From the NCBI GenBank assembly GCA_017436785.1, contig JAFSCK010000023.1, positions 1 to 53,224 of the forward strand: a stretch of DNA of 53,224 nt, written 5' to 3'. The notes beneath the pieces were generated by a model. That model did no database searches. It had not been told where the DNA came from and was given only the letters and a program-made list of their open reading frames with translations. Positions 9,398 through 21,434 of this stretch are shown here, piece by piece. Source of the DNA: Oscillospiraceae bacterium (GTDB lineage Bacteria > Bacillota > Clostridia > Oscillospirales > Oscillospiraceae). Position numbers and translations under genes: made by a program. Each line of letters opens with the position of its first letter. The stretch's first letter is position 1.

Positions 9398-9889
9398 ATG
9401 TATACAGCAGCAGTCATCACCATCAGCGACAAGGGGTATCGGGGCGAGCGGATAGACACCAGTGGCCCCAATCTAGTGCAGATCCTTACCGACAAGGGCT
9501 TTGATGTGACCCATACCGCTATCATTCCCGATGAAAAGGAAATGATAAAGGCAGAACTGGTAAAATGCGCCGATGAGCTGGCCATTGCGCTGGTGCTCAC
9601 CACCGGCGGTACCGGTTTCTCTCCCCGGGACGTTACGCCTGAGGCAACGATGGAAATCGTGGAGCGTCCCACTCCCGGTATTCCCGAAGCCATGCGTTAT
9701 GAATCTCTGAAGATCACGCCCAAGGGCTGCCTCAGCCGCAGCGCCGCAGGCATTCGGGGCCGCAGTCTTATCATCAACCTCCCCGGCAGCAAGAAGGCCT
9801 CTGCTGAGAATATTTTGGCGGTCATCGACCCTGTTGCTCATGGTCTTGATATGCTTTACTCCGAGGGCAGCGCTGATTGCGCAAGGTGA
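9398..9889 (+). CDS. mog: Molybdopterin adenylyltransferase (Mog/MoaB family)
   Basis: Activates molybdopterin with ATP to adenylyl-molybdopterin, the substrate of MoeA. The 163 residues include AVITISDKGYRGERIDTSGP, LTTGGTGFSPRDVTPEAT and INLPGSKKASAEN, all typical of the MogA/MoaB fold. Either name could be used; activity in bacteria is usually called Mog. It starts 2 bp after moaC and ends 4 bp before the NTPase gene. Confidence 0.94.
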   Translation: MYTAAVITISDKGYRGERIDTSGPNLVQILTDKGFDVTHTAIIPDEKEMIKAELVKCADELAIALVLTTGGTGFSPRDVTPEATMEIVERPTPGIPEAMRYESLKITPKGCLSRSAAGIRGRSLIINLPGSKKASAENILAVIDPVAHGLDMLYSEGSADCAR

Positions 9890-9893
9890 TTCC

Positions 9894-10466
9894 ATGAAGA
9901 ATCTCTTTTTGACCGGTCCCATTGGAAGCGGAAAAAGTACAAGTATAGCGGTTGCTCTGGGGGAACATCTTTCCGAAGCGGGCGGCTTTCTGACGGTACG
10001 TCAGCGGGACGATGCTGGGCGGGCCATTGCCTACTGGCTGAAGCGGCCTGACGGCAGGGATGGGCAGACCATCATTGATTATTCCCAGAAGCCCTATACC
10101 ATGCATATGGAAGTGTTTGAGGATTTTGGTGTCGCGCTGCTGGACGAAGCGAAGCAGTGTGACTATGTTGTTCTGGATGAGATCGGCGGCTTTGAGGTGC
10201 TGTCGGATGCTTTCCTGAGTGCCCTTATGAAACTGCTTGAAAGTGATGTTCCCTGCATTGGCGTGATGAAAGGTGCTGGACCGGCCAGTAAGATGATCCA
10301 AAAGTTGGGATTGGGCGATGCCTATGTGCAAAGGGCGGAAGCTTTGCGCCAGTGGATGCGCCGTGATGAAAAGACAGTGCTTTACGAATGCACGCAGTTT
10401 GATCCGCAGGGGCTGAGCTTGGCCCAACAGTGGGTAAGCTGCTATTGTAATGCGGATTCTCAATAA
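9894..10466 (+). CDS. P-loop nucleoside-triphosphatase (NTPase_1/THEP1-like) in the molybdopterin operon
   Basis: A 190-residue P-loop protein with Walker A GPIGSGKST (about residues 8-16) and a Walker B-like VVLDEIGGFE (about residues 88-97), resembling the THEP1/NTPase_1 family. The ATG at 9894 is chosen over an upstream in-frame ATG because it follows the mog stop by 4 bp and begins directly with the P-loop strand. As last gene of the cofactor operon it may supply a nucleotide-dependent step, for example like MobB, but no motif shows this. The stop codon lies inside a perfect palindrome (10457-10483). Confidence 0.75.
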   Translation: MKNLFLTGPIGSGKSTSIAVALGEHLSEAGGFLTVRQRDDAGRAIAYWLKRPDGRDGQTIIDYSQKPYTMHMEVFEDFGVALLDEAKQCDYVVLDEIGGFEVLSDAFLSALMKLLESDVPCIGVMKGAGPASKMIQKLGLGDAYVQRAEALRQWMRRDEKTVLYECTQFDPQGLSLAQQWVSCYCNADSQ

Positions 10467-10483
10467 AACGGTTTTATTGAGAA
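10457..10483. promoter_or_regulatory. Perfect 12-bp-arm palindrome over the NTPase stop codon
   Basis: Two 12-base arms (TTCTCAATAAAA and its exact complement) flank a 3-base centre. The TAA stop at 10464-10466 lies in the left arm. No T-run follows, so it is not a standard terminator; it could be an mRNA 3-prime stabilising hairpin or a protein-binding site. Confidence 0.5.
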
Positions 10484-10507
10484 CATATTGCACAAATCAG
10501 GATGCTG

Positions 10508-10545
10508 CACAGCAGGTATGGGAAACCGCCTGCTGTGTTTGTTTT
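10508..10545 (+). terminator. Rho-independent terminator of the regulator/molybdopterin operon
   Basis: A 9-bp stem CACAGCAGG/CCTGCTGTG (10508-10516 with 10529-10537) is followed by TTTGTTTT. It separates the cofactor operon from the promoter of the importer operon. Confidence 0.8.
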
Positions 10546-10584
10546 ACCCGCCCAAATATTATAAAAATAAAAGTAGAATCATGG

Positions 10585-10613
10585 TTGAATTTGTACAAAG
10601 CGTATGCTATACT
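10585..10613 (+). promoter_or_regulatory. Promoter of the FecCD-type importer operon
   Basis: TTGAAT (10585-10590), a 17-bp spacer and TATACT (10608-10613). The same layout (TTGAAA-17-TATACT) precedes tupA. Predicted transcription start is near 10620, leaving a leader of about 154 bases. Confidence 0.7.
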
Positions 10614-10619
10614 TTAATA

Positions 10620-10773
10620 AGTGACTGCCCCGGAAAAGCCAGGGAGGAAGATCATTTTGAAAAGCGGTGGACGAGCCTCTTTCCAAAATCCAATGCTAAG
10701 CGCAGCAATAGCTGTGCTCTTTGGTCTTTGGAACGGGTTCGTCATTTTTATTATCAAATTTGGAGGAAGAAAC
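10620..10773 (+). promoter_or_regulatory. Structured 5' leader shared with tupA (candidate Moco/Tuco-type riboswitch)
   Basis: This leader contains a 23-base block at 10666-10688 that is identical to 15903-15925 before tupA. A second block, GGGTTCGTCATTTTT at 10735-10749, is also shared. GACGAGCC (10669-10676) can pair with GGGTTCGTC (10735-10743), followed by a T-run. Inside, TTCCAAA (10681-10687) pairs with TTTGGAA (10727-10733), and GCGCAGC/GCTGTGC form an apical hairpin. Promoter spacing and leader length also match the tup leader. The Moco RNA motif (RF01055) is a known class before such genes; membership was not tested. The ribosome binding site is GGAGG at 10762-10766. Confidence 0.7.
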
Positions 10774-11874
10774 ATGAAGAAGATCATCGCTCTGCTGCTG
10801 GCACTGGTTATGGTTTTGAGCCTGCCTGCTTGCGGCGCAAAGGAAGAAGCCCCCGCTGAAACCACTGCAGCTCCTGTAGTGGTAGCTCCTGTAGAAACTG
10901 CTGCTCCCGAAACTGAAGCACCCGAGTGGCCCAAGACCATCACCGATATCATGGGCAACGAAGTGGTTCTGCAGGCTCCTGCAGCTCACCTTGTTGGTAC
11001 CCACAATCCTACTATGAACACTGCTGTTGTTTTGGGTGGCGGCGGCAAATATATTGCAGGCTTCGGCAATAAGGAAATGGCAGACGTTCTGTATTCCTAT
11101 GTCTATCCCGAGCTGAAGGATGATGTCATCCAGATCGGCAAGGGCAAGAACATCAACTATGAGACGGTTCTGACCACCGGTGCTGATCTGGCTATCCTGC
11201 CCCAGCGTTTTGCCTACATGGTGGAGGAATTTGAGGCCATCGGCATTCCCGCAATCGTCATCCTGTCTTCTACCGAAAGCTATGATACCATCCGTAACGC
11301 CATCAACCTGATGGGTGAAGTGGTTGGCGAAGAGGACCGTGCAGAGGAGATTCTGACCTACTTCAACGGCATCATCGACAAGATCACCGAACGTACCGCA
11401 GCCGTCACCGAAAAGCCCTCTGTTATGTTCCTTGGCAGCTCCAATATGTATGCAGTTGCTCCCGGTGCTATGATCCAGAGTGACATTATGGAGACTGCCG
11501 GTGCTGTAAATGCCGTTTCCGGGGTTGAAGTTCTGGGCTCCTTTGCAGATGTCAGCGCAGAAGAAATCGTCGGCTGGAATCCTGATGTGATCTGGGTTCC
11601 TAACTATGCAGACTACACCGTGGAAGATGTTCTGAACGCTCCTGAGTTCTCCAGCATCACTGCTGTCCAGAACGGTGCCGTTTATACCTTCCCCTGTGAA
11701 CTGGAGCCTTGGGATTATCCCACTGTCAGCGCCTGTCTGGGTGCTGCATGGGCTGCCTACAACCTGCATCCCGATCTGTATTCCTATGATGAGCTGATCG
11801 CCGATGTCAACGGCCTGTATGAGCTGCTTTATGGCCAGACCTTTACTGCCGAGCAGATTGGTATTATTGAATAA
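10774..11874 (+). CDS. Substrate-binding lipoprotein of FecCD-type ABC importer (candidate molybdate/tungstate)
   Basis: A 366-residue lipoprotein exported to the membrane surface. The signal peptide MKKIIALLLALVMVLSLPAC has its lipobox cysteine at residue 20, followed by an Ala/Pro/Glu-rich linker to about residue 48. A Peripla_BP_2 (helical backbone, class III) domain follows. The family usually binds iron-siderophores, haem or cobalamin, but Haemophilus MolA of the same fold carries molybdate and tungstate. The shared leader with tupA and the position between mog and xdhC support Mo/W (inference). ATG at 10774 has GGAGG 7 bases upstream and the only good signal peptide. Confidence 0.85.
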   Translation: MKKIIALLLALVMVLSLPACGAKEEAPAETTAAPVVVAPVETAAPETEAPEWPKTITDIMGNEVVLQAPAAHLVGTHNPTMNTAVVLGGGGKYIAGFGNKEMADVLYSYVYPELKDDVIQIGKGKNINYETVLTTGADLAILPQRFAYMVEEFEAIGIPAIVILSSTESYDTIRNAINLMGEVVGEEDRAEEILTYFNGIIDKITERTAAVTEKPSVMFLGSSNMYAVAPGAMIQSDIMETAGAVNAVSGVEVLGSFADVSAEEIVGWNPDVIWVPNYADYTVEDVLNAPEFSSITAVQNGAVYTFPCELEPWDYPTVSACLGAAWAAYNLHPDLYSYDELIADVNGLYELLYGQTFTAEQIGIIE

Positions 11875-11892
11875 TCCCTAAAGGAGCATTTT

Positions 11893-12918
11893 ATGCCTTC
11901 TCAAAAATCGTATCGCCTGATAATGATTTTCCTCACGGTGGCCCTTGTGGCCACCAGTGTGGTTGCCCTGTGCATTGGACGGTACTCTATTGATCCAAGG
12001 GAGGCTTTCGGCGCGGTGGCCAGCTATCTGCAGAAGCGGATGGCCGGAACCGTGGAAAAGCCGACTGCCATGGAGAATGTCATTTTTGTTCTGCGCATTC
12101 CCAGAATCATCGGTGCCATCGTGATTGGTGCGGCGCTGAGCCTGTCTGGTGCGGTGTATCAGAGCGTGTTTAAAAATCCTCTGGTCTCCCCAGATATTCT
12201 GGGTGTATCCTCCGGCGCCAGCGTCGGTGCCGCAACTGAGATCCTGCTGGGTGGAAGCCTTCTGTCCATGCAGCTGATGGCTTTTGCTGTGGGCCTTCTG
12301 GCAGTGCTGCTGTCTACGGCCATCCCCAAGATGCTGAAAAACAATTCCAACCTGATGCTGGTGCTTTCCGGCACCATTGTGGGCGGCTTTATGTGTTCGG
12401 TACTGGGAGTGCTGAAATTCATTGCGGAGGAAGATACAGAACTTTCCTCCATCATCTACTGGCAAATGGGCAGCGTCCAGTCCGTGAAAATGGATACCCT
12501 TGTCTATGTTGCTCCTATCTTTATTGCTGGTGCGGTGATCCTTGTGCTGCTCAGCTGGCAGCTGAACATCCTATCTTTCGGTGAAAACGAAGCAAAGACC
12601 TTGGGTGTGAATCTGAAAATGCTTCGCGGCATTACCATCGTGATTTCCAGCATGCTGACTGCCTCTGCTGTCAGTATCAGCGGCACCATCGGCTGGATCG
12701 GTCTGATCATTCCCCATCTAGGACGGTTATGTGTGGGTTCCGACAATACAAAGATGATCCCCTGCGCCATGCTGATGGGCGGATTGTTCCTGCTGGTGAT
12801 GGATACCATTGCCCGTACGGTAACATCGCTGGAGGTCCCGCTGTCGATCTTGACAGGCCTCATCGGTGCACCGATCTATGCATGGCTTCTGTGGAAGCAG
12901 AAAGCGAGGGTGATGTAA
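11893..12918 (+). CDS. FecCD/BtuC-family ABC permease
   Basis: A 341-residue integral membrane permease with about ten hydrophobic helices. Typical FecCD motifs are LRIPRIIGAIVIGAALSLSG (about residues 74-93), QSVFKNPLVSPDILGVSSGA, and GTIGWIGLIIPHLGR. It forms a homodimeric type II importer channel with the ATPase downstream. AAAGGAG precedes the ATG at 11893, and it sits 18 bp after the binding-protein gene. Substrate is inferred from the neighbours only. Confidence 0.93.
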   Translation: MPSQKSYRLIMIFLTVALVATSVVALCIGRYSIDPREAFGAVASYLQKRMAGTVEKPTAMENVIFVLRIPRIIGAIVIGAALSLSGAVYQSVFKNPLVSPDILGVSSGASVGAATEILLGGSLLSMQLMAFAVGLLAVLLSTAIPKMLKNNSNLMLVLSGTIVGGFMCSVLGVLKFIAEEDTELSSIIYWQMGSVQSVKMDTLVYVAPIFIAGAVILVLLSWQLNILSFGENEAKTLGVNLKMLRGITIVISSMLTASAVSISGTIGWIGLIIPHLGRLCVGSDNTKMIPCAMLMGGLFLLVMDTIARTVTSLEVPLSILTGLIGAPIYAWLLWKQKARVM

Positions 12919-12919
12919 G

Positions 12920-13705
12920 ATGGTACAATTGACAGGTCACAATCTGTTTTATTCCTACACCCGGGACCGAATGATCCTGAAGGATATTTCCTTCCGCTTT
13001 AAAAGCGGAGAGATCGTTTCCATCCTTGGTCCTAACGGTGCAGGAAAGACCACCTTCTTAAACTGCCTTGCCAATCTGGTTCCTCTTGACAAAGGTGAGA
13101 TTTTCATCGATGATAAGAATATCCGAAAGATTCCCCCTCGGGAGGTGGCAAAGGTCATCGGCTATGTGCCTCAGATCATTGTTCCCAGCTTCGATTTTTC
13201 CGTTCTGGAATATGTAGTCACCGGCTGCGCACCTCATATGGGCACCCTGTCCCGCCCTAAGCAGGAGCATTACGATATTGCTATGGATGCCATCAAACGC
13301 ATGGGCATCGAAAAGCTGTGGAACCGCTCCTACAGCCAGATCTCCGGCGGTGAGCGGCAGCAGGTGTCCATTGCCCGTGCGCTGGCCCAGCGTCCTGCCT
13401 TTATCCTGATGGATGAACCCACCGCGCACTTGGATTATGGCAATCAGATCAAGGTGCTAAAGACCGTCCGCAGCTTGAAGGAAGAGGGCTACGGTGTGAT
13501 CCTGACTACCCACAATCCTGATCATGCATTGCTGCTGCAGGATCAGGTGGCGATTCTTGACCGGAATGGTGTTTTGTCCACAGGCCTGAGCACCGATGTT
13601 TTGAAAGAGCAGAATCTCACGGAGCTATATGGTACCGAACTGAAACTGTTTTATGAAGAACAATTGGGAAGAGAGGTATGCGCTGCACCCCAGTTTACAA
13701 TTTGA
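12920..13705 (+). CDS. FecE-type ABC transporter ATP-binding protein
   Basis: A 261-residue ATPase: Walker A GPNGAGKTT, Q-loop in IGYVPQ, ABC signature ISGGERQQ, Walker B FILMDEPTAHLD and the H-loop histidine in ILTTHNPDH. The start lies 1 bp after the permease stop. It powers the FecCD-type importer encoded upstream. The C-terminal extension after residue 215 is usual for FecE/BtuD relatives. Confidence 0.94.
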   Translation: MVQLTGHNLFYSYTRDRMILKDISFRFKSGEIVSILGPNGAGKTTFLNCLANLVPLDKGEIFIDDKNIRKIPPREVAKVIGYVPQIIVPSFDFSVLEYVVTGCAPHMGTLSRPKQEHYDIAMDAIKRMGIEKLWNRSYSQISGGERQQVSIARALAQRPAFILMDEPTAHLDYGNQIKVLKTVRSLKEEGYGVILTTHNPDHALLLQDQVAILDRNGVLSTGLSTDVLKEQNLTELYGTELKLFYEEQLGREVCAAPQFTI

Positions 13706-13723
13706 TTTTCAGGAGGAGAGCCC

Positions 13724-14542
13724 ATGGAATTTTATGAGCAGGTATTGAAGGCTAAAAAAGAGAATAAAGTCTACGCGACTGCCACTGTCGTGAAGACAGA
13801 AGGGAACACCCCCCGCAAGCCCGGTGCAAAAATGCTGGTGTTTGCGGATGGCAGCATTGTTGGCAGCGTTGGCGGCGGTATTGTTGAGGAGCAGACGATT
13901 GCAGATTGTCTGGCTGCCATGAACAGCGGGCAAAATCTGATGAAAACCTATTCTGCCATTTCACAGGAGGTGGTGGAGAAGGGGATGGTCTGCGGCAACA
14001 ATATGACCATTTTCATTGAGTCTGGGGAGCGGCTGCCTTACCTGTATCTGTGCGGCTGCGGTCATGTGGCGCAGGCAGTGCTGCCTTTGGCAAAGGCTTT
14101 GGGATATTATGTGGTGGCCATCGATGCCCGGGATATTTCCGGCTATGAGGAGGCCTTAGCGCCTGCGGATGAGCTGCACATTCTGGAAAGCTTTGACCAG
14201 ATCGGACAGTTGAACTTTATTCCTGGCTCTGCTTTCATCGTTTGCTCCTTCTCCCACAAAACTGATGGAGATATTCTGAATGTGATCCTCAGCAAAGAAC
14301 CTTCCTATGTTGGTATGCTGGGCGGCAAGCCCAAGATCCGGGCTTTGTTTACAAAACTGAAGGAAAACGGCTATTCCGAGGAGGTTTTGAAGCAGATCCA
14401 TGCTCCCATCGGCTTAGATATTGGCGGCGAAAAACCTGTAGAAATCGCTGTATCCATTATGGCAGAAGTGCTGGCAGCCAAATACAGCGGCAGCTGCCGT
14501 TCCATGCGGGATATCCTCCGGGACTCTGTATTTCCCTTATAA
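13724..14542 (+). CDS. XdhC/CoxI-family molybdenum cofactor chaperone-like protein
   Basis: XdhC proteins bind and protect mature Mo cofactor and help its sulfuration and insertion into molybdoenzymes. The 272 residues have the N-terminal XdhC/CoxI region (TVVKTEGNTPRKPGAKMLV, GSVGGGIVEE) and a C-terminal Rossmann-like domain (YLCGCGHVAQAVLPLAKALG). A conserved MLGGKPKI block and IGLDIGGEKPVEIAVSIMAE follow. AGGAGGAG precedes the ATG at 13724. It is last in the importer operon, and a strong terminator follows. No XdhA/B-type hydroxylase lies in the window, so the client may be elsewhere. Confidence 0.9.
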   Translation: MEFYEQVLKAKKENKVYATATVVKTEGNTPRKPGAKMLVFADGSIVGSVGGGIVEEQTIADCLAAMNSGQNLMKTYSAISQEVVEKGMVCGNNMTIFIESGERLPYLYLCGCGHVAQAVLPLAKALGYYVVAIDARDISGYEEALAPADELHILESFDQIGQLNFIPGSAFIVCSFSHKTDGDILNVILSKEPSYVGMLGGKPKIRALFTKLKENGYSEEVLKQIHAPIGLDIGGEKPVEIAVSIMAEVLAAKYSGSCRSMRDILRDSVFPL

Positions 14543-14550
14543 AAGTAAGA

Positions 14551-14585
14551 ATGACCACTGCCTTTTGGACAGTGGTCATTTTTTT
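14551..14585 (+). terminator. Rho-independent terminator after the xdhC-like gene
   Basis: A 10-bp stem ATGACCACTG/CAGTGGTCAT (14551-14560 with 14570-14579) is followed by six T. The T-run overlaps the stop codon of the convergent gene. Confidence 0.9.
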
Positions 14586-15105
14586 ACACATCGAACCGGT
14601 TATAGCTTTCATAGCAATCAAGACACAGCTTTTTGCCTCCTGCGATTCGGATCCAGTTGGCACCGGTTTTTTCGCCGCAGCATTCGCAGTAGTAGCTATC
14701 GAAAATCTTTGCAGGGGTAGGTAAGGGGATGCGGGTAGACATGACATCAAAGAGTTCTTCATAGCTGCGGTCGAAATAATAGCCCTTGGATTCCTCCGGA
14801 GTCATGTTCAAAGGCTTTGGCTTCAGCACCAGCCGAACAGATTCTCCAGTGGCCCGATTATAGAAGGAAAAGGCCTGCTTTCCGGTCATATGAAACAGCA
14901 GATTGCCTTTGCCAATGCTGCAGCCCAGCATGACTTGGATGGCATCCACGCCGCAGGCATCGTTTTCGGAAATACAGAGCACCTGTTCATTATCGGAGAA
15001 GGTGATGTCCAGCAGCTTCATGGCATATTCTGCGGCGGCATAGCCGATTCGCAGTCCGCCGCAGTGGTGTCCGTGAAAGTCTACGCATTTTTCCCAAAGG
15101 GTCAT
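14584..15105 (-). CDS. FmdE-like protein with C-terminal zinc-finger
   Basis: A 173-residue protein. The N-terminus (CVDFHGHHCGGLRIGYAAAE) is the FmdE signature, first named for a protein encoded with tungsten formylmethanofuran dehydrogenase; NDACGVDAIQ is a second family motif. The C-terminal 45 residues hold CxxCG...CLDC, a probable zinc ribbon. FmdE-like proteins recur with Mo/W enzymes, but their role is unsettled. The ATG at 15105, 2 bp after the stop of the MoaE-like gene, is preferred over an upstream in-frame ATG inside that gene. It is last in a three-gene unit. Confidence 0.85.
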   Translation of the reverse strand: MTLWEKCVDFHGHHCGGLRIGYAAAEYAMKLLDITFSDNEQVLCISENDACGVDAIQVMLGCSIGKGNLLFHMTGKQAFSFYNRATGESVRLVLKPKPLNMTPEESKGYYFDRSYEELFDVMSTRIPLPTPAKIFDSYYCECCGEKTGANWIRIAGGKKLCLDCYESYNRFDV

Positions 15106-15107
15106 AG

Positions 15108-15500
15108 TCAGTTCAGCTCCGTTTCTACCACACATTCATTTTTGACGCGGCCTACCAGATAATTCAGGGCATCCACAACCCGGGGACGGATATCGCCACC
15201 AATGAGAACGTACATAATGTCGTCACCCGTGGAAAGCCGGCCTTCATTGAGCCAGACCTTTATGTAATAGATACCTTCCAGTTTATAGGTATCGGAGATT
15301 ACGGCGTTGACCTTTTCTTCGTCGTAAGAGAAGACCATACCGGTAACGGCTTTGGTATCCTCCGCGCCATAGCGGACTTTGGCCTTGGCAGTTTGACGGA
15401 CAGTTCCATTGTGGGTCAGATACATGCCGATTTTCGGCGCAGATTCATGCGCTTTGGCTTCTTTCAGCCATGCATCGATAGAAGGAATGGGTTTAGACAT
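15108..15500 (-). CDS. MoaE-like molybdopterin synthase large subunit, divergent
   Basis: MoaE dimers with MoaD convert cyclic pyranopterin to molybdopterin. The 130 residues show the MoaE plan: HNGTVRQT, then FSYDEEKVNAVIS, then VWLNEGRLSTGDDIMYVLIGGDIRPRVVDAL. The C-terminal RVKNECVVE keeps a lysine at the position I align with E. coli Lys119. The second catalytic lysine (Lys126, in WK+E) is replaced by a V-E-T stretch, and the tail is short. AGGAGG 7 bases before the ATG gives the start. No obvious MoaD is in the window; the 84-residue protein just upstream ends in Gly-Gly. Confidence 0.75.
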   Translation of the reverse strand: MSKPIPSIDAWLKEAKAHESAPKIGMYLTHNGTVRQTAKAKVRYGAEDTKAVTGMVFSYDEEKVNAVISDTYKLEGIYYIKVWLNEGRLSTGDDIMYVLIGGDIRPRVVDALNYLVGRVKNECVVETELN

Positions 15501-15503
15501 ATA

Positions 15504-15758
15504 TTAGCCTCCTGTTGAGAGAAATTGGATAAAATAGCGGTGATAGATCGCTTCTATATCAGCATCCTCGCCCTCCATAAGAACGCGGATGCGTTTGGCT
15601 GCCCATACACCCATGCCCTTGGGCTTTAATTCCGTCAGGGTTATGCGGCAGGAACCATATCGATAGCAGTTGCTGCTTTCTTCAGTCACATCCTCCTGCT
15701 CCCGGAAAAAGCTGCGGGCACGCTGAATGGATACGCTCCAAGTTTCGTCTTTGGTCAT
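15504..15758 (-). CDS. Small protein of unknown function with C-terminal Gly-Gly, upstream of MoaE-like gene
   Basis: 84 residues, not recognised. It begins MTKDETWSVSIQRARSFF and ends FLSTGG; the C-terminal half has two predicted strands (SCRITLTEL and KRIRVLME). The ATG at 15758 is chosen for GAGGTG 8 bases upstream; an upstream in-frame ATG at 15812 has no such site. Size, terminal Gly-Gly and place directly before a moaE-like gene recall MoaD. However, a helical start is unlike MoaD, and the Gly-Gly codons double as the ribosome binding site of the next gene. Also possible: a small accessory protein unrelated to sulfur transfer. Confidence 0.6.
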   Translation of the reverse strand: MTKDETWSVSIQRARSFFREQEDVTEESSNCYRYGSCRITLTELKPKGMGVWAAKRIRVLMEGEDADIEAIYHRYFIQFLSTGG

Positions 15759-15817
15759 TGTAATCACCTCATCTTTATCATACAGCAAATAACAGCAAAA
15801 AGAAAGATGCAAAACTA

Positions 15818-15846
15818 TTGAAATTGATGTTTTCTTGTGATATACT
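15818..15846 (+). promoter_or_regulatory. Promoter of tupABC
   Basis: TTGAAA (15818-15823), a 17-bp spacer and TATACT (15841-15846); predicted start near 15853. It parallels the promoter at 10585. Confidence 0.75.
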
Positions 15847-15852
15847 TACCCG

Positions 15853-16012
15853 GTAAGAATGAAGGACCCCAGATGCGGGGCGGCATAGCGTTTTGCAAAG
15901 TTGGTGGACGAGCCTCTTTCCAAAAGCAGATCAGGTTACGCAGTAATTGCGCCCTTTTTGCATTGGATGGGTTCGTCATTTTTTATTTTTGAAACATATT
16001 GGAGGAACAAAA
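15853..16012 (+). promoter_or_regulatory. Structured 5' leader of tupA, second copy of the shared element
   Basis: About 160 bases. A CCCC-AGATGC-GGGG hairpin lies at about 15867-15880. The conserved 23-base block is 15903-15925. GACGAGCC (15906-15913) can pair with GGGTTCGTC (15969-15977), followed by six T. TCCAA (15919-15923) pairs with TTGGA (15963-15967), and CGCA/TGCG forms the tip. The tips differ in sequence from the 10620 copy while pairing is kept, which suggests a selected RNA fold. It is a candidate Moco/Tuco-type riboswitch or a new class. Confidence 0.7.
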
Positions 16013-17053
16013 ATGAAGAAGATCGTATCTTTGCTGCTGGTTCTGGCCATGATGCTGGGTCTGGTAGCCTGCGGTGCTTCTAAGCCCGCTGAGACACAGG
16101 CACCCACTGAGGCCCCTGTTGTTACCGAAGCTCCCGCTCCCGCAACGGAAGCACCCGAAACTGAGGCTGCTCTGGTTGTGGATACTATGATCCTGAAGGA
16201 AGCCGATGACAAGATGCTGAACACCTATTCTGCCATCGCTGTCAATGCTGATGCACCCTTTGTGGATGCTGATGGCAATGCAGTTTCCGATGTCTATGTG
16301 AACACTGCCGGCGCCGATGCTCTGATCCAGTGGCTGCTGAGCGAAGATGCTCTGACCATGGCTGGTGAGTACGGTGTTGCCGAGTATGGCGAGTATCTGT
16401 TCTACGTTCTGGAGAACGTTCCCACCTACACCGGCGAGATCGCTGCTGCTACCGAGGAGACCAAGACCATCCGTCTCTCCACCACCACCTCCGTGAAGGA
16501 CTCTGGTCTGCTGGGTTACCTGCTGCCCGCTTTTGAGGATGCTTACGGCTACACTGTGGAAGTGCAGTCTGCCGGTACCGGTAAGGCTATTGCTGCAGCC
16601 AAGGCTGGCAATGCTGACCTGATTCTGGTTCACTCCAAGAGCCAGGAGGAGACCTTCGTTGCTGACGGTTTCGGCCGTATTGTGGATGGCTTCGAGGCTG
16701 AGCGCGTATCCTTCATTTACAACTACTTCGTCCTGTGCGGTCCTTCCGCTGACCCCGCTGGTGTTGCAGCCGCTGCTTCCGTTCTGGATGCCTTCGCAGC
16801 CATTGCTGACGGCAAGCATGCCTTCATTTCCCGCGGTGACAGCTCCGGCACGCACACCAAGGAGCTGCAGCTGTGGCCCGCTGAGCTGGGTATTGCCAAG
16901 GAAGCTGAGAGCTTTGCTGCCTACGCTGACTGGTATGTTTCTGCCAACACCGGCATGGGTGCCTGCTTGGTCATGGCTGAGGAAATGGGCGCTTATATCC
17001 TGACCGATAAGGCTACTTTCCTGACCTTCGTTGCCAACGACGGTGTTATGTAA
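16013..17053 (+). CDS. tupA: Tungstate-binding lipoprotein, TupA-like but circularly permuted
   Basis: TupA binds tungstate for the TupBC importer. The 346 residues have a lipoprotein signal (cysteine 20) and a Pro/Thr/Glu linker to about residue 55. Residues 58-131 (ILKEADDKMLNTYSAIAVN ... IQWLLSEDA ... GEYLFY) match the C-terminal part of ordinary TupA. Residues 142-346 hold the N-terminal and central parts: STTTSVKDSGLL 146-157, SRGDSSGTH 263-271, GMGACLVMAEEMGAYILTD 314-332. The chain then stops at FLTFVANDGVM, where ordinary TupA goes on into the segment found here at the front. GGAGG at 16001-16005 sets the start. It is followed by a hairpin terminator, then tupB and tupC. Confidence 0.88.
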   Translation: MKKIVSLLLVLAMMLGLVACGASKPAETQAPTEAPVVTEAPAPATEAPETEAALVVDTMILKEADDKMLNTYSAIAVNADAPFVDADGNAVSDVYVNTAGADALIQWLLSEDALTMAGEYGVAEYGEYLFYVLENVPTYTGEIAAATEETKTIRLSTTTSVKDSGLLGYLLPAFEDAYGYTVEVQSAGTGKAIAAAKAGNADLILVHSKSQEETFVADGFGRIVDGFEAERVSFIYNYFVLCGPSADPAGVAAAASVLDAFAAIADGKHAFISRGDSSGTHTKELQLWPAELGIAKEAESFAAYADWYVSANTGMGACLVMAEEMGAYILTDKATFLTFVANDGVM

Positions 17054-17085
17054 GGATTGCATTTCCTGAAAAAATACTGTAAAAT

Positions 17086-17115
17086 AAATCCCGTGGGGCG
17101 ACCCACGGGATTTTT
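17086..17115 (+). terminator. Hairpin terminator between tupA and tupB
   Basis: A 12-bp stem AAATCCCGTGGG/CCCACGGGATTT (17086-17097 with 17102-17113) with T-run. It is placed inside the operon, so it may be leaky and lower permease and ATPase levels relative to the binding protein. Confidence 0.75.
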
Positions 17116-17133
17116 CACAAAGGGAGACAATAT

Positions 17134-17820
17134 ATGAAAACAGCGCTGATGAAGGCTCTGGCGTTGATCCTGTCAAGGGATGCGGAGCTGATCAATATCT
17201 TAAGCGTCACCGCAAAAATGAGCCTGCAAAGCTCTGTCATAGCCCTTTTGCTCGGACTTCCCATCGGTATCTGGCTGGGAGCCTGCAAGTTTCCCGGAAG
17301 AAATGTAGTCCTGATTGGAAACCGAACCCTGCAGGGCATGCCTCCGGTGGTCTGTGGCTTGCTGTTTTATATGCTTTTTTCCGGTGTTGGACCCTTGCGG
17401 CACCTGAAGCTTTTATTCACGGTTGACATTATGATCTTGGCACAGGTGGTGCTGATCACACCCATTGTGGTAGGGACCATGGAGACTTATGTTTCCGGTG
17501 TGGCCCCTGCTGTGCGGGAAACAGCCCGGGGACTGGGGCTCGGAGGGATCAAAACCTTTATTCTTTTGTGCAATGAATGCATCTATCAAATCATTTCCGC
17601 TTACCTGCTGGCATTTGCCCGGTCCATCGCTGAGGTAGGCGCGGTGTCCATGGTAGGCGGCGCTATCAGCTGGAAGACCAATGTCATGACTACCGCCATC
17701 ATGCAGTATACAAACCGGGGTAATTTTTCTCTGGGTGTTGCACTGGGCATGATCCTGCTGACTCTCTCTCTGATCGTGAATATTATCATTTCAGTTTTAC
17801 AAAGGAGGCTGAGCCGATGA
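17134..17820 (+). CDS. tupB: Tungstate ABC transporter permease TupB
   Basis: A 228-residue permease with about five membrane helices. The inner-membrane transporter loop ETARGLGLGG (EAA-type motif that docks the ATPase) lies near residue 129. Residue pattern GLPIGIWLGA, GMPPVVCGLLFYMLFSG and SRSIAEVGAVSMVGG-like stretches fit TupB/CysT relatives. GGGAG lies 7 bases before the ATG. It overlaps tupC by 4 bp (ATGA). Confidence 0.92.
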   Translation: MKTALMKALALILSRDAELINILSVTAKMSLQSSVIALLLGLPIGIWLGACKFPGRNVVLIGNRTLQGMPPVVCGLLFYMLFSGVGPLRHLKLLFTVDIMILAQVVLITPIVVGTMETYVSGVAPAVRETARGLGLGGIKTFILLCNECIYQIISAYLLAFARSIAEVGAVSMVGGAISWKTNVMTTAIMQYTNRGNFSLGVALGMILLTLSLIVNIIISVLQRRLSR

Positions 17821-18470
17821 AGCTAACACCCTTCTCCAAAACCTATGAGGGAAGAGAGGTCTTGGATTTTCCCGGCATGGAGCTGCAGCCCGGGAAGATT
17901 TACGCCATTATTGGTGCCAACGGCAGTGGAAAGTCTACCTTTGCTAAAATTCTGGCTGGCATTTTGCCTGCAGATCAGAAGGGGCAGCTTCTTTCCGGTG
18001 GAGACATCGGCTATATGCCTCAGAAGAACTACGCATTCCGTATGAGTACAAAGGAAAACATTTTGCTGAATGGTAAGGATTTTACCCGGGCAGAACACCT
18101 GATGGATGCCATCCAGCTCCGTCATCTGGAGAATAAGCGGGCAGACAGGCTTTCCGGTGGTGAAACAGCCCGAATGGCACTGGTGCGGCTGATGATGAAG
18201 CGGTATGATTTGGTGCTTCTGGACGAACCCACTGCTGCCATGGATATGGAAACCACTCTTTTGTCAGAAACCATCATTGTAAACTACGTTCGTGAGACGA
18301 ATTGTTCCCTGATTTTAGTGACCCACAGCCTGCAGCAGGCCAGACGGATCGCGGATGAAGTGTGGTATTTCCATAAAGGAAAGCTTTTGGAGGCAGGCTC
18401 AAAAAAACAGCTGCTTTATATACCGGAAAAGCCGGAAACAAAGCAGTTTCTTGAATTTTACGGCGTGTAG
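17817..18470 (+). CDS. tupC: Tungstate ABC transporter ATP-binding protein TupC
   Basis: A 217-residue ATPase: Walker A GANGSGKST at 33-41, signature LSGGETARMAL, Walker B LVLLDEPTAAMD and an H-loop (ILVTHSLQQAR). It is shorter than molybdate ModC because it lacks the C-terminal TOBE regulatory domain, as is usual for TupC. ATGA overlap with tupB; 12 bp before the radical SAM gene, so all four genes from tupA may be one unit. Confidence 0.93.
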   Translation: MKLTPFSKTYEGREVLDFPGMELQPGKIYAIIGANGSGKSTFAKILAGILPADQKGQLLSGGDIGYMPQKNYAFRMSTKENILLNGKDFTRAEHLMDAIQLRHLENKRADRLSGGETARMALVRLMMKRYDLVLLDEPTAAMDMETTLLSETIIVNYVRETNCSLILVTHSLQQARRIADEVWYFHKGKLLEAGSKKQLLYIPEKPETKQFLEFYGV

Positions 18471-18482
18471 CGGAGGCGCCCT

Positions 18483-19613
18483 ATGCTGAGAAAGCTTTAT
18501 ATCGAGCCTACTACAAAATGTAATCTGAATTGTAAAATGTGCTTCCGCCATACTTGGTTCGACGAACCCATCTGTGATTTGTCTTTGGAAGACTATCAGC
18601 ATGTGCTGAAAACGATGCCGAAGTCCGTGGAAACGATTTTCTTCGGTGGTATGGGAGAACCGCTTTTCCACAAGGATATTCTGGAAATGATTCGTTTGGC
18701 AGCGCAGACGGGAAGGGAAGTGGAACTGCTGACCAATGGCACTCTGCTGACGGAAACCATGATCTATGGGATCTTGGATGCAGGTCTATCCCGGTTGTGG
18801 ATCTCCATCGATGATCTGGAAACGGATTCTTCCATCAATGCGGCGTCCGATGGCGGCGAGTTGGATCATTCCGGCCATAATCATTCTGGAAAGGTTCTCA
18901 GCAATATTCGCATGCTCAATAAGATCCGCCAGAAGTCCTTAAGCACCATTTCTCTGGGTATTACATTCGTTGCTATGAAGAGTAATGTCCATCAGCTTTC
19001 CAAGCTGCCCTTTTTTATCGCCCAGCATCTTGTGGACGAAGTAAATGTTTCCAACATTTCGCCCACTGATGAAACATCACAGCAGGAACTTCTGTATACC
19101 GGCCTTGTGAATATGTATACCGGTCCCGGCAAAGGCAGTGTCCTGCCAGCAGTCCGGCTGCCATATTTCGACATGAACATTCAGGAGGCCGCTGACGGCA
19201 TCCGTAGCCTAATGCGCAAGCAGAATTTTAATCTCTATTTTAATGACCAGCCGGTGCTGCGGAAGACTGGCTACTGCAAATTTGTCCGGGAGGGCATGAC
19301 CTTTGTCCGAGCGGATGGAAAGGTAAGCCCTTGTATGGCACTGCTGCACAATGGCTATACCTATATGAGCAATGTCCGCCGAAAGATTACCCACTGTTCC
19401 TTTGGTTCTATCAAGGAACAGCCTTTGGCGGAGATTTGGGATAGCACAGAATACAAAACCTTCCGAAGAAAGTTTGACGATTTTGACTTCGCCGCCTGTC
19501 TTTACTGTGGACACTGCGAGCTGTTTTCTGAAAACAAGGAGGATTGCATCGGCAACACCCATCCCGCCTGCGGCGGCTGCCTATGGGCAGAGGGTGTGCT
19601 GAGCTGTCCATAA
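18483..19613 (+). CDS. Radical SAM/SPASM protein, tungsten oxidoreductase maturase type
   Basis: 376 residues. The radical SAM cluster is C13-x3-C17-x2-C20 (CNLNCKMC), followed by FFGGMGEPLFH. The C-terminal SPASM/twitch region is cysteine-rich: CKFVREGMTFVRADGKVSPC, CLYCGHCELF, CIGNTHPACGGCLW. This layout fits the family annotated as tungsten cofactor oxidoreductase radical SAM maturase, encoded beside aldehyde oxidoreductase-like genes. A loop near residues 121-137 (DGGELDHSGHNHSG) is His-rich and looks inserted. No peptide substrate gene is visible; the oxidoreductase at the left edge is the likely client (inference). Confidence 0.8.
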   Translation: MLRKLYIEPTTKCNLNCKMCFRHTWFDEPICDLSLEDYQHVLKTMPKSVETIFFGGMGEPLFHKDILEMIRLAAQTGREVELLTNGTLLTETMIYGILDAGLSRLWISIDDLETDSSINAASDGGELDHSGHNHSGKVLSNIRMLNKIRQKSLSTISLGITFVAMKSNVHQLSKLPFFIAQHLVDEVNVSNISPTDETSQQELLYTGLVNMYTGPGKGSVLPAVRLPYFDMNIQEAADGIRSLMRKQNFNLYFNDQPVLRKTGYCKFVREGMTFVRADGKVSPCMALLHNGYTYMSNVRRKITHCSFGSIKEQPLAEIWDSTEYKTFRRKFDDFDFAACLYCGHCELFSENKEDCIGNTHPACGGCLWAEGVLSCP

Positions 19614-19621
19614 TGGAATAG

Positions 19622-19657
19622 AAATGCGGCAGCCTGAAAATAGGCTGCCGCATTTTT
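19622..19657 (+). terminator. Terminator after the radical SAM gene
   Basis: A 14-bp stem AAATGCGGCAGCCT/AGGCTGCCGCATTT (19622-19635 with 19642-19655) ending in T. It marks the end of the tungsten island. Confidence 0.92.
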
Positions 19658-19745
19658 GCGCAAAAGAGGACCCTAAGGATACCGGAAAAGAAGCTTTAGT
19701 GGAAGCCTTTTTCTTTCGTCAAAAACAGGTCGGTTGCTTCACAAT

Positions 19746-21434
19746 TTACTTGTCCATACCGCAGTGCATTGCGGCTTCGACCAGCGCCCGGTCATTCATG
19801 ACTGCATCGTAGAACCGGAAACCACCGGCAAAATTGTAGGCGTTAAAGCCATAGCCTTCCAGAATCCGGGTGGCGATGTAGCTGCGCAGGCCGCTCTGGC
19901 AGATCACATAGACAGGTTTTCCGATTTCGATCTCGCCGATCCGTTCCCGCAGTTCATCTACCGGAATATTCATGAACCCGTCAATGTGTCCGCGGCTGTA
20001 TTCGCCCACAGTCCGGGTATCCAGCAGGGTAACACTGCCGTCCCTAGGTAGTTTGGAAGCATCGGCCAGATGCCACTGCTTTAAGCCTCTGGAAATATTG
20101 TCGATCATAAAACCTGCCATATTCACAGGATCCTTGGCGGAGGAATAGGGAGGTGCATAGGCAAGGTCCAGATCCTTCAGATCAGTTGCTTTCATCTTAG
20201 CATGGATAGCGGTAGAGAGCACATCGATGCGCTTGTCTACGCCATCGTAACCCACGATTTGGGCACCCAGAAGACGGTAGGTTTCCTTTTCAAAAACCAC
20301 CTTCATGGTCATGAGCTTGCCGCCGGGATAGTAGCCTGCATGGCTCATGGGGGATAGGATCACCGTATCCACATCCAACCCGGATTTCCGGGCATTGGTC
20401 TCGTTGATGCCGGTGGTAGCTGCACTCATGTCAAAGACCTTGATAACGCTGCTGCCCTGAGAACCTAAGTACCGGCTGTCGCCTCCGCAGATATTGTCCG
20501 CTGCGATCCGCCCCTGCTTGTTGGCAGGACCTGCCAGTGCGATCAAGGCACCCTCTCCGGTAACATAATGCTTCACCTGTACTGCATCGCCCACAGCGTA
20601 GATGTCAGGAATGGAGGTTTCCATCCGGTCATTCACCAGAATGCTGCCCTTCATGCCGAGAGCCAGACCAGCCTCTTTGGCAAGGGAGGCTTCCGGGGTG
20701 ACACCAATGGCTAGCACCACCATATCCGCATGGAGGGAGGGCTGGCCTTTCAGCAGCACATCCAAGCCGCCGTCCTTCTCTGCGAACCCTTCCACACTAT
20801 AGCCCAAAGCCAGCTTTACACCATGTTTACGCATTTCTGCGTGGATAAAAGAAGCCATGTCCGCATCAAAGGGATTCATCAACTGCTTAGGCCGCTGGAC
20901 AATGGTCACATCCAGCCCCAGTTCCCGAAGATTCTCCGCCACTTCCAGACCGATAAAACCACCGCCCACCATAACAGCGGACTTCGGGTTATTCTGATGG
21001 ATAAATTCCTTGATCCGGAAGGTATCCTCCACGGTACGCAGAGTGAACAGCTTATCACTGTCCATACCGGGCAGGTCGGGCCAGACTGGCTTTGCACCGG
21101 GAGAAAGCAGCAACTTATCGTAATTCTCCTCAAAAACTTCACCGGTTTGCAGATTTTTCACGGAAACCGTCTTTCTGTCGGGATGAATGGCGGTTACTTC
21201 GTGATGTACATTCATGTGGATCCGGAATCTGGAAAAGAAGCTCTCCGGAGTCTGCAGGGTCAGATCCTCCGGATCTTCAATAACCCCGCCGATGTAGTAC
21301 GGCAGACCGCAGTTGGCGTAGGAAATGTATCCGGAACGCTCGAAAACGACGATCTCAGCTTTTTCGTCCAGTCTGCGGATCCTTGCCGCAGCCGTAGCTC
21401 CACCTGCCACGCCACCTACGATCACAACTTTCAT
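19746..21434 (-). CDS. CoA-disulfide reductase/NADH persulfide reductase with C-terminal rhodanese domain
   Basis: 562 residues. A flavoprotein disulfide reductase with FAD motif VVIVGGVAGGATAAARIRR, active cysteine 42 in YANCGLPYY, and a second Rossmann motif (VMVGGGFIGLEVAENL). A rhodanese domain covers about residues 460-562 with the sulfur-carrying cysteine in VICQSGLR. Relatives reduce CoA-disulfide, CoA-persulfide or polysulfide. It is last in the thioredoxin-rhodanese operon (ATGA overlap upstream) and so belongs to a sulfur/thiol redox unit under the palindrome-bearing promoter at 22108. Confidence 0.92.
   Translation of the reverse strand: MKVVIVGGVAGGATAAARIRRLDEKAEIVVFERSGYISYANCGLPYYIGGVIEDPEDLTLQTPESFFSRFRIHMNVHHEVTAIHPDRKTVSVKNLQTGEVFEENYDKLLLSPGAKPVWPDLPGMDSDKLFTLRTVEDTFRIKEFIHQNNPKSAVMVGGGFIGLEVAENLRELGLDVTIVQRPKQLMNPFDADMASFIHAEMRKHGVKLALGYSVEGFAEKDGGLDVLLKGQPSLHADMVVLAIGVTPEASLAKEAGLALGMKGSILVNDRMETSIPDIYAVGDAVQVKHYVTGEGALIALAGPANKQGRIAADNICGGDSRYLGSQGSSVIKVFDMSAATTGINETNARKSGLDVDTVILSPMSHAGYYPGGKLMTMKVVFEKETYRLLGAQIVGYDGVDKRIDVLSTAIHAKMKATDLKDLDLAYAPPYSSAKDPVNMAGFMIDNISRGLKQWHLADASKLPRDGSVTLLDTRTVGEYSRGHIDGFMNIPVDELRERIGEIEIGKPVYVICQSGLRSYIATRILEGYGFNAYNFAGGFRFYDAVMNDRALVEAAMHCGMDK

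Follow-up and report, generated by a model that had tools for sequence, protein, structure and literature searches.

Circular permutations of proteins are mostly engineered, or are recognised between very distant proteins. For TupA of Desulfovibrio alaskensis G20 (PDB 5MY5), the published description places lobe B at residues 91-200, proposes a binding site formed by T9-T11, S12, H59, R118, T124, and D170, and includes an R118K variant as a case of single changes shifting the choice between molybdenum and tungsten (PMC5517513). In Treponema pallidum, the ABC-transporter binding lipoprotein TpMglB-2 is naturally circularly permuted, a rearrangement common to a clade; its authors suggest an adaptation to membrane tethering (PMC4990184). 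With CPSARST, a permutation relation was reported among glycine betaine-binding proteins, molybdate-binding proteins, and CysB (PMC2395249). No earlier report of a permuted TupA was found in searches limited to open-access literature.

Here we describe a 346-aa lipoprotein, identified by its sequence as a circularly permuted TupA, which is encoded in a 53,224-nucleotide stretch of an Oscillospiraceae genome (GenBank GCA_017436785.1, contig JAFSCK010000023.1; the whole stretch analysed is referred to as the window). It shares with D. alaskensis TupA the core, the TTTS motif, the equivalents of H59, R118, T124, and D170, and the TupB and TupC partners; it differs from that protein in its chain order, a 20-aa linker, a tether mapped to lobe B, and two insertions in lobe A, one of 7 residues and one of about 11. 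L121 (genome G420), a canonical TupA from the sister lineage, has the same tupA-tupB-tupC operon and is 56% identical to the window protein in block B and 46% in block A (blocks as in Table 1), but it has the ordinary order, with the core first and the NTYS-containing block last, and is without the joining linker. Like TpMglB-2, permuted TupA is a clade-wide permuted binding lipoprotein with a transporter partner; TpMglB-2 differs in having a type I (cluster B) sugar-binding fold (PMC4990184) and another cut site, and no sequence relation is claimed. The CPSARST cases likewise concern circular permutation within the type II binding-protein superfamily, but they lie between families less than 24% identical and were recognised by structure (PMC2395249). 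For TupA, both orders occur inside a single family at about 50% identity, and ligand site and partners are unchanged between them.

Gene layout and chain order

The protein encoded at 16013-17053 does not have the canonical TupA chain order (Table 1). Pfam and NCBIfam matches cover residues 147-342 only, corresponding to the first ~190 positions of a TupA-type binding protein; the last quarter of TupA is absent from its usual place in these matches and was located in front, in residues 56-131. The signal peptide ends in the lipobox LVAC. The tether that follows is 8-109 residues long among permuted relatives (82 measurable), and the distance between the cysteine and the first block, with a median of 37 (n = 82), exceeds that of canonical TupA (median 19, n = 42). 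A lobe B strand opens block A, which passes into lobe A at Thr71/Tyr72; the joining linker is 20 aa long in 102 of 103 permuted relatives.

Table 1 Features of the permuted tupA locus. Positions are those of the window.
Feature	Position	Strand	Basis
Partial aldehyde ferredoxin oxidoreductase family gene (AFOR_C), at contig edge	9-737	-	PF01314
GGAGG, likely ribosome-binding site, 7 bases 5' of ATG	16001..16005	+	Sequence reading
Permuted tupA, 346-aa lipoprotein (stop included)	16013..17053	+	Reading frame and relatives
Signal peptide, lipobox LVAC, Cys20	16013..16072	+	Translation
Low-complexity tether, Pro/Thr/Glu/Ala rich, residues 21-55	16073..16177	+	Translation
Block A, residues 56-131, usual TupA C-terminal end	16178..16405	+	Profile, rotation scan, ligand/lobe mapping
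Linker from old C-terminus to old N-terminus, residues 132-151	16406..16465	+	Profile, relatives
Block B, residues 152-346, usual N-terminal and middle part	16466..17050	+	Pfam PF12849, NCBIfam NF041772, ligand mapping
tupB, permease	17134..17820	+	PF00528, NF038017, NF041773
tupC, ATPase, 217 aa; matches residues 1-209 of 319-position TupC model	17817..18470	+	PF00005, NF041774
Radical SAM/SPASM protein	18483..19613	+	TIGR04317 best, 255.9 bits (below cut-off of 380)

Evidence for circular permutation

A first-pass annotation of the window had proposed that the block which normally ends TupA sits at the front of this protein, and this was borne out: against a profile built from ordinary TupA C-termini only (15 of 58 canonical rows left out; shuffle and same-protein controls), block A scored 58.1 bits, while the best of 1030 shuffles reached 8.3. 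Un-permuting the chain in silico raised the score against ordinary TupA from 223.6 to 271.9 bits and turned a partial match into a full-length one; the rotated protein spans positions 2-242 of the 245 of the canonical model in a single alignment, so the whole domain is present. The further claim of that annotation, a permutation and not a truncation plus duplication, is upheld by the rotation scan, by the constant ends, and by block trees that lead to the same four canonical TupAs. By these comparisons the protein is a natural permutant, with the same domain, new ends, the old ends joined, and a single origin.

In single-sequence searches the N-terminal block gave weak evidence only, and no TupA match came from a Pfam scan of residues 1-151. 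The NF041772 TupA cut-off of 400 bits was reached by neither the native (125 bits) nor the rotated protein (138.7 bits). Four canonical TupAs from the same family also stay below it, at 194-255 bits; the shortfall thus points to lineage distance and is no argument against a TupA.

Among the canonical-TupA positions conserved at >=90%, 48 of 53 are kept at >=90% in the permuted form. Position 312 is Asn in 103/103 permuted proteins vs. Gly in 58/58 canonical ones, and position 117 is Ala in 97/103 vs. Ile in 58/58. The permuted set consists of 105 rows minus L079 and L089, which were not split; kept out of the canonical set were L179 (masked stretch), L169 (short), L122, L124, and L127 (repeat loci), and L125, L126, L144, L148, L182, and L185 (mismatch to the motif pattern).

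Binding site and lobes

The proposed D. alaskensis site corresponds to T157-T159, S160, H207, R274, T280, and D332 of the permuted protein. The window protein has all eight residues, as do 103 of 103 permuted proteins examined, in keeping with the earlier expectation that the oxyanion site survives, and the two-lobed TupA fold is likewise predicted to be retained.

In D. alaskensis numbering, position 180 marks the end of block B and block A begins near 186-189, both within lobe B, and Thr71/Tyr72 are equivalent to Gln200/Tyr201, the chain's return crossing to lobe A. By the published lobe boundaries (PMC5517513), both new ends map to lobe B, which agrees with the first suggestion that the lipid anchor is attached at another face. 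Lobe A would then be continuous (about residues 72-231) and lobe B would fall into two segments (56-71 and ~246-346); ordinary TupA has the opposite arrangement. The lipid tether would lead into lobe B, not lobe A.

Operon partners and tungsten context

tupB is the next gene in 79 of the 80 loci kept from a scan of named genomes (see below), the exception (L067) having 103 bases left, and both tupB and tupC lie downstream in 73/73 loci with more than 1.5 kb of downstream sequence. In the window both genes score under the NCBIfam equivalog cut-offs (320 and 400). The best model for the radical SAM/SPASM gene is a tungsten cofactor oxidoreductase maturase, below cut-off, and the genes beside the operon are XdhC-like (closest to an AOR maturation factor), MoaE-like, and FmdE-like. 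No Rfam element was above cut-off at 9500-20000. A second metal-type ABC system at 10621-13705 (+), directly 5' of the XdhC-like gene, is made up of a Peripla_BP_2 lipoprotein with a TupA-like signal peptide and tether, a FecCD-like permease, and an ATPase.

Of 25 other genomes carrying the permuted gene, 24 have AFOR_C (PF01314), vs. 2 of 20 family genomes without a TupA match (Fisher p 2e-9, kinship uncorrected), these 20 having been chosen by hand from the listed non-matching genomes and not at random. The window's own genome holds three AFOR_C matches, one of them at 9-737 of the window and the other two elsewhere.

Across 33 TupBs of permuted systems, 17 of the 19 positions invariant in 47 canonical TupBs are kept. 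The canonical Asn at position 177 is Ala in 32 and Gly in one, and the canonical Arg at 183 is Asn in 31 of 33 (Ala177 and Asn183 in the window). Both positions sit between predicted membrane segments five and six, in a loop that presumably faces the binding protein, as in ModB-type transporters. Since the chance that both changes fall in 172-196 is ~0.16 (8 of the 19 invariant positions lie there), the co-change is only suggestive of a TupB docking altered alongside the permutation. A stronger version, in which the topology was turned inside out and the transporter re-fitted its docking, with TupA Asn312 gained and TupB Asn177 and Arg183 lost, is conceivable but doubtful; if true, the two systems would be a natural before-and-after pair, in which the permease reads chain order and anchor position.

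Distribution

The same order was sought in other proteins, as the first reading had advised, and was found in five family-level groups. In the same-family sample, 30 of 200 genomes had a match: 20 permuted (15 genera, including that of the window), seven canonical, two divergent remnants (L034, L035), and one signal peptide only (G174). The order sample gave nine matches in 394 genomes, four permuted (G000, G472, G294, G306) and five canonical; the class sample gave 47 in 391, four of them permuted (G000, G1134, G1291, G983). In the phylum sample 187 of 398 genomes had a match, and among the matches listed only the window's own is permuted; those beyond the ones listed are the weakest, and no full-length permuted match could fall among them.

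Peptide patterns taken from the permuted form, run against 84,980 named species genomes, matched 240 stretches, 202 of them relatives; the 80 kept all span the permuted protein from residue <=2 to >=289 of 291. By accession prefixes they belong to 77 assemblies, with titles such as Oscillospiraceae, Lachnospiraceae, and Clostridia; rumen, caecum, and colon are the sources of many, and some of these genomes are the same as in the rank-sample collection. In three named assemblies two permuted loci each were seen (L037 and L045; L078 and L091; L085 and L097), and some genomes may carry two copies.

The exact host of the gene is less sure than the gene itself, because four other searched genomes of the window's own genus gave no match and the window's genome, a fragmented MAG of 174 contigs, has 7.3% estimated contamination.

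Origin of the permuted form

A tree was built from 96 TupAs, rotated or canonical; all 38 permuted rows fall into a single clade (SH-aLRT 100). Its sister group, the canonical L121, L027, L128, and L129, is the same in the whole-protein tree (support 95), the block A-only tree (83), and the block B-only tree (94); these supports of 83-95 are shallow and come from quick trees. In the TupB tree the permuted systems stand beside three of the four sister systems on one branch (support 88). L187 and L188, being the same genes as L128 and L129, were not given separate rows in that tree, and no adjacent tupB was found for the L027 system, which is hence absent from it.

The trees support a permutation that arose once, within a tupA-tupB-tupC operon. 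The canonical order is the older one, as it is the only order seen outside the class among the phylum matches listed. The route may have been a tandem in-frame duplication followed by trimming of both ends, or fission and fusion; intermediates of the duplication route, with block A at both ends, were not seen among the family, order, class, phylum, and named-genome matches.

Interpretation and alternatives

Very probably, the gene encodes a tungstate-binding TupA lipoprotein that underwent one circular permutation, has its tether on lobe B, and feeds TupBC for AFOR-type enzymes. The sequence shows that the chain was cut in a lobe B loop just ahead of the strand leading to ILKEADD, and that the old ends were joined through the 20-residue linker; the C-terminal block now comes first, followed by the linker and then by the N-terminal and middle part. 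Tungstate would be bound between the lobes by the same residues and passed to the adjacently encoded TupB and TupC, and the tungsten would be supplied to enzymes of the aldehyde ferredoxin oxidoreductase family; the lipid tether would enter at lobe B rather than lobe A.

A chimera, in which another TupA supplied the N-terminal block from its C-terminus and the protein's own C-terminus was lost, would fit two blocks that are equally separable in sequence, and identity to L121 is lower in block A (46%) than in block B (56%). The tree of either block nevertheless leads to one and the same set of four canonical TupAs as sister group, and the permease tree concurs with three of the four sister systems; this agreement argues against a chimera, which we regard as improbable. 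An assembly or binning artefact, with two tupA pieces joined in the wrong order, might be suspected in a MAG so fragmented and with such contamination, and an assembly error at the junction had been named at the outset as what could overturn the reading. The order and the 20-aa linker are, however, common to many independent assemblies, including a one-contig 4.3 Mb genome (G078); the identical order in 80/80 kept named-genome loci and in 25 further genomes (with some overlap) excludes such an error, and the chance of an artefact is negligible. Block A might instead complete the lobe of a neighbouring molecule in a domain-swapped dimer. The chain ends of TupA-type proteins lie close together, and a linker of constant length fits an intramolecular bridge between them; a swap is regarded as highly improbable.

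There is a small chance that the permuted protein keeps its fold but binds molybdate or another oxyanion in place of tungstate, ligand choice not being set by the eight residues alone, as the precedent of the R118K variant indicates (PMC5517513). Against this, all eight proposed residues are those of a tungstate-selective TupA, a tungsten-enzyme family (AFOR) is present in nearly all genomes with the gene, and tungsten-type maturation genes adjoin the operon.

The permuted form has persisted in 15 or more genera of a single family and in four further family-level groups. Both orders exist in related bacteria with the same site residues and operon, and so the effects of chain order and tether on folding, ligand release, and docking are directly testable. 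Annotation is affected too: only the core is recognised by Pfam and the NCBIfam TupA model, and the N-terminal quarter therefore resembles an unknown domain. Tungsten use in gut bacteria, among which carriers of permuted TupA are found, is of current interest.

Divergent copies and variants

L034/L190:6967-8067 (G041) is a lipoprotein with the same permuted layout, ~26-28% identical; it is without STTTS and SRGDxSGTH and has no tupB or tupC nearby. It seems to be a permuted TupA that lost its oxyanion site, perhaps for a new role. L035 (G084:C23) is of the permuted type but shorter (260-aa frame), stops mid-core, and looks like a decaying copy. G306 has, in addition to its permuted TupA, a protein in which a LysM-like domain precedes a TupA-like domain of canonical order (L126, G306:C285). 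In G846 (L187, G846:C8) two canonical tupA genes flank tupB-tupC, one on either side, and are not fused. L147 (G570) is a canonical TupA with ~80 extra C-terminal residues of putative SH3-type appearance, as judged by eye.
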